Source: Poseidonibacter lekithochrous
GTDB lineage: Bacteria; Campylobacterota; Campylobacteria; Campylobacterales; Arcobacteraceae
Length of the DNA stretch: 64,000 nt
Direction of reading: 5' to 3'
Assembly: GCF_013283835.1 (NCBI RefSeq)
Contig: NZ_CP054052.1
Span: 3,224,001 to 3,288,000 of the forward strand
Notes under the pieces: generated by a model
Seen by the model: only the letters and a program-made list of their open reading frames with translations
Database searches by the model: none
Told to the model about the DNA's origin: nothing
In this document: positions 34,963 through 54,013 of the stretch, piece after piece
Position numbering within the stretch: the first letter of the stretch is position 1
Layout: each line of letters opens with the position of its first letter
Translations under genes and position numbers: made by a program

Positions 34963-36243
34963 ATGGCAGGATTAAAAGATCTTAAAGGTCAAGGACATGC
35001 ACCAACATTGTTTATGGCTTTTTTATATTTCGATATGAGTTTTATGGTATGGACAATGTTAGGTCCATTAAGTACAGAGATTAGTGAAGCATTAGCCTTA
35101 ACTGGTCATATAATGACAGCAGGAGAAAAAGCAACTTTACTTTCTCTTCCAATTTTATCAGGGGCTATATTAAGAGTAGTACTTGGATTTGGAGTTGATA
35201 AATTAGGAGCAAAAAGAACTGCACTTATTTCTCAAACTATTGTTATTGCTGCTTTATTAACAGCTTATATTCAAGGTAATAGTATTACTTATAATCAATT
35301 ATTAATAGTAGCACTTGGTCTTGGTTTTGCAGGAGCTTCATTTGCAGTTGCACTTCCACAAGCTGGTCAATGGTATCCACCAAAACTTCAAGGTGTTGTT
35401 TTAGGAATTGCGGGAGCTGGTAATATTGGAGTTGTAATTGACTTCTTATTTGCACCAAAAATTGCTGAAATCTGGGGATGGGAATCTGTATTTGGAGTTG
35501 GAGCATTTATGGCTATTGTAGTATTCGTAGCTTACTTATTCCTAGCACAAGATGCGCCGGAAGATGTATATAAAAAGAATCCAAAGAAACTAAAAGATTA
35601 TGGAAAGCTATTAAAAGACAAAGATACTTGGTGGTTCTGTCTATTCTATGCTGTGTCTTTTGGTGGATTTGTAGGATTTGCTGGATATATGAAAGTATAT
35701 TTAATGAACACTTATCAAGTTGATATGTCTGCTTTTGGTTTAGATATATTAGATGAAGGAAATGTAAAAGTAATTGCGGGTTACTTTGGAGCATTATGTA
35801 TCTTCGCAGGTGCTGTTTTAAGACCAGTTGGTGGAGCAGTTGCCGATAAAATTGGTGGAGTTAGATCACTTTATTACTTCTATGGATTAGTAGCTTTATT
35901 AGTAATTATTAATGCTACAATGAGTTTACCATTTGGAGTTGCTATTTTAGTTTTATTCTTAATTATGGCAAGTTTAGGAATGGCAAATGGATCAGTATTC
36001 CAATTAGTTCCACAAAGATTTGGTAAAGACATTGGTATTATGACAGGTATTGTTGGATGTGCTGGTGGTCTTGGTGGTACTGCACTTATTCAAACACTTG
36101 GTTGGTCAAAAGGTGCCTTTGATGGATATACAGCTGGATTCTTAATCTTTGCAGTTGTTGTATTTGTTGCTATTTCTGGTATTTCATTAGTGAAAACTAG
36201 ATGGAGAACTACATGGGGAGTTCAAGCAGGAGGTAGAATATAA
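34963..36243 (+). CDS. narK: Nitrate/nitrite MFS transporter
   Basis: The 426-residue inner-membrane protein has about twelve helices. GPLSTEISEAL, SGAILRVVLGFGVDKLGAKR and the later AGALCIFAGAVLRPVGGAVAD contain the arginines and glycine-rich nitrate signature segments of the NarK/NasA/NRT2 family. It imports nitrate or exchanges nitrate and nitrite. It heads the plus-strand nitrate cluster and ends at a strong terminator overlapping its stop codon. The family name does not tell direction of transport. Confidence 0.92.
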   Translation: MAGLKDLKGQGHAPTLFMAFLYFDMSFMVWTMLGPLSTEISEALALTGHIMTAGEKATLLSLPILSGAILRVVLGFGVDKLGAKRTALISQTIVIAALLTAYIQGNSITYNQLLIVALGLGFAGASFAVALPQAGQWYPPKLQGVVLGIAGAGNIGVVIDFLFAPKIAEIWGWESVFGVGAFMAIVVFVAYLFLAQDAPEDVYKKNPKKLKDYGKLLKDKDTWWFCLFYAVSFGGFVGFAGYMKVYLMNTYQVDMSAFGLDILDEGNVKVIAGYFGALCIFAGAVLRPVGGAVADKIGGVRSLYYFYGLVALLVIINATMSLPFGVAILVLFLIMASLGMANGSVFQLVPQRFGKDIGIMTGIVGCAGGLGGTALIQTLGWSKGAFDGYTAGFLIFAVVVFVAISGISLVKTRWRTTWGVQAGGRI

Positions 36244-36262
36244 AAAGAGCTTAGCTCTTTTT
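36242..36262 (+). terminator. Terminator after narK
   Basis: A nine-base perfect stem, AAAAAGAGC with GCTCTTTTT and a TTA loop, begins inside the narK stop codon and ends in a T run. Confidence 0.85.
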
Positions 36263-36307
36263 ATATTTAAATTAGAACTTGGATTAAATAGTTTTAATTT
36301 AAATATA
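36262..36307. repeat. 13-base inverted repeat before the kinase/phosphatase gene
   Basis: TATATTTAAATTA (36262-36274) and its exact complement (36295-36307) flank 20 bases and end 16 bases before the TTG start of the next gene. It may be an operator or an mRNA stem that exposes the ribosome site. Confidence 0.5.
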
Positions 36308-40061: not shown

Positions 40062-40096
40062 TTACATTAAATATATTCACTTTATATTTAATGTAA
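40062..40096 (+). terminator. AT-rich hairpin between nas copy 1 and nirA
   Basis: A fourteen-base perfect inverted repeat (40062-40075 with 40083-40096) is followed by CTTTTTCTT, shortly after the nas stop. It is a plausible terminator, although its stem is almost all A-T. Confidence 0.65.
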
Positions 40097-46937: not shown

Positions 46938-47240
46938 TTAAAAAGTAATTTTATTTATTGCACTTAGTGCTTCATTGATTTCAAATATCTTAGTTCTTAT
47001 ATCACTAAATCCAAAAGCTTCTAATCTTTTTGTATGTTTAGTAGCATATCTATTTGCATCATTTATATTATCAAACACATATACTCCTCCACCCTCTTTA
47101 GTCTCTTCATTTTCTGTCCAAATTTTCCATATTAAACCCTCTTCATTTGCTATATCATGGGCTAGGTCTGTCATAGTTTCTGTGAATTTTTCTTTAAATG
47201 GCCCTTGATATGGAAAATCTACTTGTAAAAGGTATTTCAT
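46938..47240 (-). CDS. ydhR: YdhR-type putative monooxygenase
   Basis: The 100-residue cytoplasmic protein matches the YdhR family: YLLQVDFPYQGPFKE at the start, GLIWKIWTENE in the middle and GGGVYVFDNINDANRYATKH later. YdhR is a dimeric ferredoxin-like fold protein thought to be a monooxygenase; its substrate is unknown. AGGAG lies seven bases before the ATG. It is divergent from a MarR-type regulator that is likely to control it. Confidence 0.85.
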   Translation of the reverse strand: MKYLLQVDFPYQGPFKEKFTETMTDLAHDIANEEGLIWKIWTENEETKEGGGVYVFDNINDANRYATKHTKRLEAFGFSDIRTKIFEINEALSAINKITF

Positions 47241-47309
47241 GTTATACTCCTATTGATTTTGTATAAGAAATTATATATGAAATTTAAATTAATGTCAACT
47301 AGGTTTACA

Positions 47310-47729
47310 ATGTCTTTATGTTTTTTATCTATGGAAACTAGTAAAGTTTTCAATAAACGAATCTTAGAAAGTTTAGAAGAATCAGGTTTTGAAGGCCTAA
47401 GTGAAGCACTTATAGTTCTTTTTCCATATATTTATGAAGAGCAGATTATTACTTCTGCAAAATTAGCAAAAAAAGTTGGTTATTCACGACAAGCTATGCA
47501 CAAAAATATAAAAAAACTTGTTGATTTTGAATATATCATCTTAGTTTCACACAATGAAAAAGAGAAAAGCATAGAGTTAACACCTAAAGGTTTAGAGTTA
47601 ATTAACAAAGCAAATGAGTATATTTCAAATGTAGAAAAAGACTTATCCAAACTAATTGGAAAAAAAGAATTAGATAAATATAAAGAGACTCAAAGTAAGA
47701 TTTACGAGTATTTAGAAAACACGAAATAG
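47310..47729 (+). CDS. MarR-type transcriptional regulator
   Basis: The 139-residue product has a winged helix-turn-helix: ITSAKLAKKVGYSRQAMHKNIKKL is the recognition region, with a wing HNEKEKSIELTPKGLEL. This is the MarR family pattern. The ATG at 47310 is chosen because AGG lies six bases before it; earlier in-frame starts at 47253 (TTG) and 47277 have no ribosome site. TTATAC (47242-47247) and GTATAA (47261-47266) form a dyad in the gap to ydhR and may be its operator. It probably regulates ydhR and itself. Confidence 0.8.
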   Translation: MSLCFLSMETSKVFNKRILESLEESGFEGLSEALIVLFPYIYEEQIITSAKLAKKVGYSRQAMHKNIKKLVDFEYIILVSHNEKEKSIELTPKGLELINKANEYISNVEKDLSKLIGKKELDKYKETQSKIYEYLENTK

Positions 47730-51920: not shown

Positions 51921-51931
51921 AATAATAATTC

Positions 51932-51962
51932 TTGACTTTCTATTATAATTTCATTATAATAG
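51932..51962 (+). promoter_or_regulatory. Near-consensus sigma-70 promoter with overlapping palindrome
   Basis: TTGACT (51932-51937) and TATAAT (51955-51960) are separated by exactly 17 bases. A ten-base perfect inverted repeat with a three-base spacer, CTATTATAAT / ATTATAATAG (51940-51962), covers the -10 box and looks like an operator resembling Fur/PerR-type AT-rich dyads. Transcription would begin near 51967, at the start of the folded element. Confidence 0.65.
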
Positions 51963-51963
51963 A

Positions 51964-52022
51964 AATGAAAGTAGCAGTTGCAGCTCATGCAATAAGGTGC
52001 TTAACCATTGCTACTCTTCATT
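51964..52022 (+). ncRNA. Candidate small structured RNA
   Basis: The 59 bases can fold as a three-way junction. The outer stem pairs AATGAA-AGTAGCA (51964-51976) with TGCTACT-C-TTCATT (52009-52022), one bulge. Inside are the hairpins TTGCA-GCTCA-TGCAA (51978-51992) and GGT-GCTTA-ACC (51996-52006). It starts at the expected initiation point of a near-consensus promoter and ends one base before the stop codon of the convergent DUF3800 gene. There is no reading frame of note. It could be a small RNA, a leader, or the end of the nirBD transcript. No known RNA family is recognised. Confidence 0.5.
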
Positions 52023-52997
52023 TTATTCAAATTTATTCATTAATGCGATATCAATTACTTCATTTTCAATATCTGTTTGCCCTTCGATAATTATATTTAT
52101 TTCATATAAAAAATTAATAGTATTTATTAAATCTTTATTTTTACAGAAATCTTCTAGATGAGAATATTTAGATTTATCACTATTATATTCTTTTATCCTT
52201 CTTAATACATACAATAATATATCACTAACTTGATTTAAAATAGAATCTTTTGAAGAAACAAAATTTATATTATCAATAATATTAAAACTATTAGATTCAA
52301 ACTTATATTTTAATGGTGCAATAGTATTACTAGAAATCGAACCGTTTAAAAACTTATTTTTCCACACTAACGATTCAGCTAAAACTCTTTTATAAACTAT
52401 TTCTTTTACATTAGGATTAGCTTTAATTGTTTCATCTTTTAATATATCAATATTTGATAATTTTTTTAAGTTCTTAGGTATTTGATTTGCAAAGTCATCT
52501 GCAATTAGTAAACCCATTTCTTGTTTCTGAGTTAAAAATCTATCTAATATATTAAGAAATCCTTTAAAAGCATACGCATTATGACTTATTTCTTCATTAT
52601 CTAAATAGTGACTTTTATGAAAGTCCTCTCTTTTATCTATACACATATATAGGAAAGGAATATTTGCTTTTGAAATCAATTGAAATAATTCATCAACAAA
52701 TTGAATTAAATCTTCTTTTACTTTTGTTCTTATTAAAGGAAGAACTTCTTCATCAAAATACTTAATCTTTGATTTATTAGTAGGTTTTTTATTTAAAAAT
52801 AAATAATTAAATATTTCAGTAAAGTGAACTTCCACCAAAAGCATATTATCAAATCCTAAAAATTCTTGTACAATTTCAGTAATTTGCATTTCAAATTTTA
52901 AAACACTTGATTCATGAACAACAAGACCTCCATACATTGAAAATACTACATTACTATTATTATTTGTTCCTGTTTCATCTGTATAAACTAAATACAT
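52023..52997 (-). CDS. DUF3800 family protein
   Basis: The 324-residue cytoplasmic protein starts YLVYTDETGTNN; the acidic pair at residues 7-8 and the later LLIADDFA are the DUF3800 pattern, an RNase H-like fold of unknown function. The family is often seen on mobile or defence-related DNA. AAGGGG precedes the ATG strongly. It stands alone between nirBD/RNA element and a membrane protein, and its 3' end abuts the candidate small RNA. It is slightly longer than typical because of a charged C-terminal half. Confidence 0.75.
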   Translation of the reverse strand: MYLVYTDETGTNNNSNVVFSMYGGLVVHESSVLKFEMQITEIVQEFLGFDNMLLVEVHFTEIFNYLFLNKKPTNKSKIKYFDEEVLPLIRTKVKEDLIQFVDELFQLISKANIPFLYMCIDKREDFHKSHYLDNEEISHNAYAFKGFLNILDRFLTQKQEMGLLIADDFANQIPKNLKKLSNIDILKDETIKANPNVKEIVYKRVLAESLVWKNKFLNGSISSNTIAPLKYKFESNSFNIIDNINFVSSKDSILNQVSDILLYVLRRIKEYNSDKSKYSHLEDFCKNKDLINTINFLYEINIIIEGQTDIENEVIDIALMNKFE

Positions 52998-53149
52998 TAT
53001 ACCCCTTATTTATATAGTTAATTATTATTATTTTATCATAAATTCTATTATATATAAGAAATAACCAACTGTCTAAAAACTAACCATCTACAACTACCAA
53101 TATTTTTTTCAAAGTAGTATAATAATAAAAATCATTACAGGATAAAAAT

Positions 53150-54013
53150 ATGAAAGAATTCATAGAAACCTACAAACAACACCAAGAAGAAATTGAATTT
53201 TTTTTACAAGAGAGTATTAGAAACCTTGGAGAATTAACACCCCATAAAGAGAGTGAGTTTTCAAAACTTTTTAATTTATTTCCCTCACTTGAATTAATTT
53301 ATTTTACAAACAAAGATACAAAAATACAAAGTACAGCAAACTACTATAGAACAAAAGTAGATGAAGAAGCAAAAGACAAAAATAGGTCTTACCTTATCTC
53401 AAAATTAGAATTTAAAGATGACAATATTGCTTTCTCTACTCCTTATATTTCTATAGCGACTAGAAACAACTGTGTTACAGTGACAATAAAAGAAGGTGAT
53501 GAGATTATTTTCTTAGATTTCAGAATTGATATTTTACTTGAGAAACTAAATTTACTTGAACTTAATAAACCTTTTCACTCTTTAACAAAAGGTTTTTATG
53601 TATTTGCTGGTTTTTCTATGATGATTTTAGCAATGGTAACTATTGCATTTTCATTATATGATTTTGTTTATTATGTATTTGCAAAAAGCACTATATCTTT
53701 AGAGATGATATTTAAACCTATTATTGCTTTAACTCTTAGTATTGCCATATTTGACTTAGCAAAAACAATACTAGAACAAGAGGTATTTTTCAAATCTTAT
53801 TCTAAAAATTCAAAAGTTGAGACTAAGATATTAACGAAGTTTTTAAGTACGATTATTATTGCTTTATCTATTGAAGCACTTATTGTTGTATTTAAAATTG
53901 CAATTAATGATTATGAGAAAATGATAAATGCTTTCTATTTAATTGCAGGTATTGCATTAATATTAGTTTCACTTACAGTGTTTATTCACTTCTCAAGTAA
54001 AAAGACTAAATAG
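53150..54013 (+). CDS. Membrane protein with N-terminal Cache-like sensor domain
   Basis: The 287-residue product has a soluble N-terminal part (residues 1-140) with LFPSLELIYFTNKD, a conserved YYRT and TPYISIATRNNCVTVTI, like the single-Cache sensors that bind small molecules, and then four membrane helices at about 148-175, 185-205, 225-245 and 255-278. The sensor has no preceding signal or helix, so it lies in the cytoplasm, which is unusual for Cache-like domains. No output domain follows. AGGA precedes the ATG. It converges with a histidine kinase and overlaps its end by 8 bases. Confidence 0.65.
   Translation: MKEFIETYKQHQEEIEFFLQESIRNLGELTPHKESEFSKLFNLFPSLELIYFTNKDTKIQSTANYYRTKVDEEAKDKNRSYLISKLEFKDDNIAFSTPYISIATRNNCVTVTIKEGDEIIFLDFRIDILLEKLNLLELNKPFHSLTKGFYVFAGFSMMILAMVTIAFSLYDFVYYVFAKSTISLEMIFKPIIALTLSIAIFDLAKTILEQEVFFKSYSKNSKVETKILTKFLSTIIIALSIEALIVVFKIAINDYEKMINAFYLIAGIALILVSLTVFIHFSSKKTK

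Follow-up and report, generated by a model that had tools for sequence, protein, structure and literature searches.

What is the compact structured element that lies directly after nirBD in Poseidonibacter lekithochrous, and with what does it work? The window analysed here is a 64,000-nt stretch of contig NZ_CP054052.1, in which the original prediction had placed a new small RNA at 51932-52022, driven by a near-perfect promoter under a palindromic operator and lying against the 3' end of a DUF3800 gene on the other strand. In the overall best explanation, to which we assign a probability of about 0.7, the RNA and the DUF3800 protein are partners in a mobile two-gene module.

Promoter and fold of the RNA

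The -35 box TTGACT (51932-51937, + strand) and the -10 box TATAAT (51955-51960, + strand) are 17 nt apart and form the promoter that had been claimed: TTGACT-N17-TATAAT at 51932-51960 scores 11/12, ranks in the top three of a 10-kb stretch, and has a score that 0 of 200 shuffles of that stretch reached. Promoter-like matches are not enriched in this AT-rich DNA (68 observed versus 70 expected) and, since they are no commoner than in shuffles, the promoter alone is weak evidence. The same geometry is found at two homologous loci, L063 (TTGACA-17-TATAGT, 11/12) and L064 (TTGACA-17-TATTAT, 11/12), where TTGACA stands at the equivalent place and the scores are attained in at most 0.5% of shuffle trials; at a third locus, L031, the promoter match is weak (9/12). 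The distance from the -10 box to the first pair of the RNA is exactly 6 nt in the window, L063 and L064, and this shared gap places the predicted +1 at 51967. Elsewhere in the window, a 12/12 consensus promoter (TTGACA-17-TATAAT, 47270-47298, - strand) precedes a small gene (46938-47240) and faces a MarR-like regulator gene (47253-47729).

The three-way junction proposed for the 59 bases from the expected start is borne out: the segment 51964-52022 folds at -19.8 kcal/mol (z -3.9), and none of 200 shuffles was equally stable. Within the noncoding RNA (51967-52022, + strand, predicted start 51967), which is recognised by its fold, its covariation and covariance-model matches, the 5' strand of the outer stem P1 (51967-51976) pairs with 52009-52015 and 52017-52019, the 3' strand (52009-52019) having one bulged base at 52016. 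The stem encloses hairpin P2 (51977-51993, loop GCUCA at 51983-51987) and hairpin P3 (51996-52006, loop GCUUA at 51999-52003). The minimum-energy fold is alike in all four known copies, three of which are close to one another: an outer stem, a longer hairpin and a shorter hairpin, on the strand opposite to DUF3800.

In a structure alignment of three sequences (window, L063 and L064), 98% of the pair cells are standard pairs, and 8 of the 19 pairs changed on both sides, compared to a shuffled mean of 2.7. These comprise 6 of 10 pairs in P1 and 2 of 6 in P2, where 100% of the cells are paired, while P3 is invariant in the three sequences. As a control, sliding the partners by 1-3 columns destroyed the covariation. 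The changes include five G-U cells and zero A-C cells, and the complement strand folds worse than the RNA strand in 4/4 copies, which fixes the strand of the RNA as the one opposite DUF3800. A covariance model (R1) built from the same three sequences, with one L064 base set to N for register, recovered L031, a copy absent from its training, at 22 bits (E 0.0054, 139 kb searched). When 397 phylum genomes were searched under Infernal's stricter filters, R1 matched only G000 and G445, both of which had contributed to the model and which are the only two of those genomes to carry this DUF3800 subfamily; the informative point is that no genome in that search had the RNA without the subfamily gene. 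The claim of a new small RNA with its own promoter is thus well supported, by conserved promoter geometry together with covariation in other genera. A lack of structural conservation had been named beforehand as a refutation of this claim, and the comparison gave the opposite result.

The element could instead be a bidirectional terminator hairpin between convergent transcripts, with no role of its own. It does lie between convergent genes, and a T-rich tail (52020-52040, + strand) is a possible terminator; this tail is weaker than the T-run of L031, where the run succeeds the stem, and L031 is the one copy in which the tail is not a poor terminator. However, a terminator needs neither two extra hairpins with a common loop sequence, nor covariation of a three-way junction, nor a promoter 6 nt upstream as in three genomes, and we consider this explanation improbable. 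The loops of the RNA are near-identical, GCUUA/GCUCA in the window, L063 and L064, with the loop of the second L063 hairpin one base shorter, and GUUUU in both hairpins of L031, including the counterpart of P3. That the two loops change together in L031 suggests a common binding partner.

The element had also been said to lack coding potential. A 41-codon open reading frame does begin at 51965, but its ATG is at or just before the expected RNA start, no ribosome-binding site is visible for it, and the homologues of the RNA have no such frame. A gene is therefore unlikely here; a small protein product was rejected because the frame is not conserved.

Linkage to DUF3800 and the nirBD neighbourhood

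The convergent DUF3800 gene (52023-52997, - strand) encodes a protein of 324 aa that matches PF12686 with E 2.8e-10 and 41.5 bits against a curated cut-off of 21, and a candidate promoter for it, TAGACA-17-TATAAT (11/12), lies at 53047-53075 on the - strand. As predicted, the RNA abuts its 3' end on the other strand: no base separates the end of the RNA stem from the stop codon (complement of 52023-52025). The DUF3800 subfamily to which it belongs is a rare one. Within the family, it occurs in the window genome and in G060 (L031); the 397 phylum genomes yielded one more, G445 (L064), and further copies are present in a Sulfurovum MAG (L063, 71% identity) and, truncated at a contig edge, in G467 (L098). 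Searches of plasmids, phages and viral contigs did not find the subfamily, and the exact RNA pattern had no match in viral contigs.

The four complete copies sit at unrelated loci, which we take, from reading the neighbouring proteins, to be after nirBD, in the hisH-hisA interval, between the two ribonucleotide reductase genes, and before ispE. At all four, the RNA lies directly after the DUF3800 stop or overlaps it, and in L063 the stop is inside the RNA gene. The RNA and DUF3800 have probably moved between bacteria together, and this joint movement suggests that they are probably one working unit.

This arrangement bears on the suggestion that the RNA acts as antisense to DUF3800. A cis-antisense RNA would control the gene either by annealing to the 3' end of the DUF3800 mRNA or through transcriptional collision, in keeping with the convergent layout, the RNA's own promoter and the L063 stop inside the RNA gene. 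Pairing, however, needs complementarity and not a conserved fold, and the covariation and the conserved loops speak for a structure that is read by a partner. Antisense action would leave these features of the RNA's own fold unexplained, and we regard it as an unlikely account.

The neighbourhood of the window copy suggests how the pair arrived. In two genomes of the same genus (G007 and G008), the homologue of the window gene at 53150 comes immediately after nirD, with neither the RNA nor the DUF3800 gene in between. The simplest reading of this empty site is that RNA and DUF3800 were inserted as one piece, and the module (51921-53100, right edge approximate) probably entered as a single insert of ~1.2 kb. 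The gene at 53150-54013 (+ strand) encodes a putative membrane protein without a Pfam match; it may have belonged to the ancestral surroundings of nirBD.

Insertion at unrelated sites, with a hairpin at one end of the module, would also be expected if the element were a recombination or transposition end that acts at the DNA level, as a folded single-strand site such as attC or a REP element. We consider this very improbable, because the conserved promoter with its fixed spacing and the G-U pairs on one strand point to RNA, there is one copy per genome, and no transposase was found in the insert. An integron attC site was rejected, as the core sites, read from the sequence, are in the wrong order. 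A repeat element was ruled out by the single genomic copy, and no tRNA fragment was found in the element.

The position after nirBD had also been pointed out, and control of the RNA by iron, peroxide or nitrogen put forward as a test. By BLAST, the RNA was found nowhere else in 104 family genomes, 39 of which have nirD; two other weak matches, inside a porA-like gene and an ABC transporter gene, are most likely due to chance. A link to nirBD was rejected on these nirD-bearing relatives without the RNA. The proposed operator fared no better. The dyad (51937-51965) is perfect and does cover the -10 box, but its arms are 13 bp and not ten (TTTCTATTATAAT, 51937-51949, and ATTATAATAGAAA, 51953-51965, spaced by 3 nt). 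Perfect dyads with arms of at least 13 number four in the window compared to none in five simulated windows. This one was not found at the homologous RNAs L063, L064 and L031, and is unique among the 104 family genomes. A shared operator is thereby ruled out, and an operator role, while conceivable in the window strain, has no support. A regulatory sRNA of nirBD/nitrogen or of the iron/peroxide response, controlled by the dyad, would explain the adjacency to nirBD and the AT-rich dyad over the -10 box; with the RNA not found beside nirD in any relative, its homologues adjoining other genes and the dyad unique among the family genomes compared, such a role has hardly any credence. Two longer perfect dyads elsewhere in the window, at 36237-36267 (15-bp arms) and 40062-40096 (14-bp arms), are possible terminators or operators.

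Known DUF3800 RNAs and related systems

Candidate ncRNAs associated with DUF3800 were reported by Weinberg et al. (2017), as cited in PMC10910872, and Rfam lists DUF3800-I (RF02969) and DUF3800-IX (RF02968), according to PMC11701678. These motifs are likewise structured ncRNA candidates beside a DUF3800 gene, and the RNA analysed here, with its covarying structure and its position adjoining DUF3800 in 4/4 complete loci, resembles them. Unlike them, it matches no Rfam model. An Rfam scan of the window at gathering and relaxed thresholds gave nothing credible, the best match being to a miRNA family of animals and scoring well under that family's cut-off, and DUF3800-I, DUF3800-IX and the other DUF3800 models had no match at E up to 10 in the window and up to 5 in the homologues. 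The RNA and its homologues thus make up a new family, absent from Rfam, within the known kind of DUF3800-associated RNAs.

We compared this arrangement with DUF3800 genes more widely. In a search of 298 phylum genomes, 29 had a DUF3800 gene above the threshold, below which the window genome itself fell. At several distant DUF3800 genes, and in the plasmid and phage relatives L099-L103, a structured element lies right after the stop, and many of these elements fold better on the strand opposite the gene, some with an inward promoter (TTGTCA-18-TATAAT in L082, TTGTCA-17-CATAAT in L099). Over 22 DUF3800 loci, the mean best promoter score was 9.0 on the opposite strand versus 7.7 on the gene strand. 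The elements and the higher opposite-strand scores suggest that DUF3800 genes may often be accompanied by a convergent RNA, although many loci have no clear promoter. None of the distant elements tested matched Rfam.

Among these elements is a second, widespread class, which immediately follows the DUF3800 stop and lies on the strand opposite the gene (L067-L070, L082 and the plasmid/phage loci L099-L103). It consists of two hairpins, GGATTG...CGATC followed by a long one that is rich in GC and has a T-rich end; some members have promoters, and the class had no counterpart in Rfam at the thresholds applied. Two further types of conserved 3' element follow the stop of distant DUF3800 genes, one of the TGACCTATGCTATCTATCC type (L081, L087-L089, L106) and one of the GGGGTCAT...CACCCC type (L091, L092, L094, L105), and the members scanned had no match in Rfam.

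Type III toxin-antitoxin systems (ToxIN-like) resemble the window pair in that a structured RNA is combined with a probable nuclease in a small module that moves between genomes. Their RNA antitoxin lies upstream in the toxin operon as tandem repeats, whereas the RNA of the window is single, downstream, convergent and self-promoted, and its module partner, unlike theirs, is DUF3800 only. A type I toxin-antitoxin system was rejected, as the partner is a DUF3800 protein of 324 aa and not a small hydrophobic toxin, and the 41-codon frame lacks conservation. An OMEGA RNA (TnpB/IscB) was likewise rejected, since only DUF3800 was found in the partner and the predicted start at the first stem leaves no guide. 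TPR-DUF3800 proteins linked to Cas12a2 share the DUF3800 domain, with an RNase H-like fold and a suspected role on or with RNA (PMC10910872); by contrast, the window protein has a stand-alone RNA adjoining it, with no Cas12, TPR domain or CRISPR array seen.

A predicted RNA partner for a DUF3800 protein

The sequences directly show the conserved structure and its strand, the promoter geometry, the link with DUF3800 and the joint insertion, and we hold it very likely that this is a real RNA tied to DUF3800. On the protein side, five residues are invariant in four DUF3800 homologues (D7, E8, E56, D167 and D259), and these would fit an RNase H-like fold and a metal-dependent nuclease; an RNase H-like fold is reported for DUF3800 in PMC10910872. 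The structure predicted for the protein, from two sequences, was too poor to use (pLDDT 43.6), and a search by sequence returned no credible solved structure.

From these comparisons we infer transcription, binding and activity as follows. A noncoding RNA of ~56-60 nt would start at ~51967 from its own promoter, fold as a three-way junction and end at the 3' end of DUF3800, its convergent neighbour, with which it would form one horizontally moving two-gene module. The DUF3800 protein would bind the RNA, probably via the twin hairpin loops, and mutual binding of the two seems likely. The RNA may then hold, direct or neutralise the putative nuclease, as an RNA antitoxin or a ribonucleoprotein partner would. 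Of the individual versions, an antitoxin-like role is the likeliest, and is put forward tentatively.

A broader proposal is equally tentative: DUF3800 nucleases may constitute a class of mobile modules, of toxin-antitoxin or defence type, in which each nuclease is partnered by a convergent, self-promoted RNA with twin identical loops that co-evolve with the protein. The window pair would be a new subclass, with several further subclasses absent from Rfam at other DUF3800 genes. Since 2017, the RNAs linked to DUF3800 have remained orphan candidates. The present case adds a covarying RNA class outside Rfam for which promoter and start are predicted, the strand is fixed, an empty insertion site is available and the partner is one gene, and these features make the role of DUF3800 and its RNA testable with 1.2 kb of DNA.
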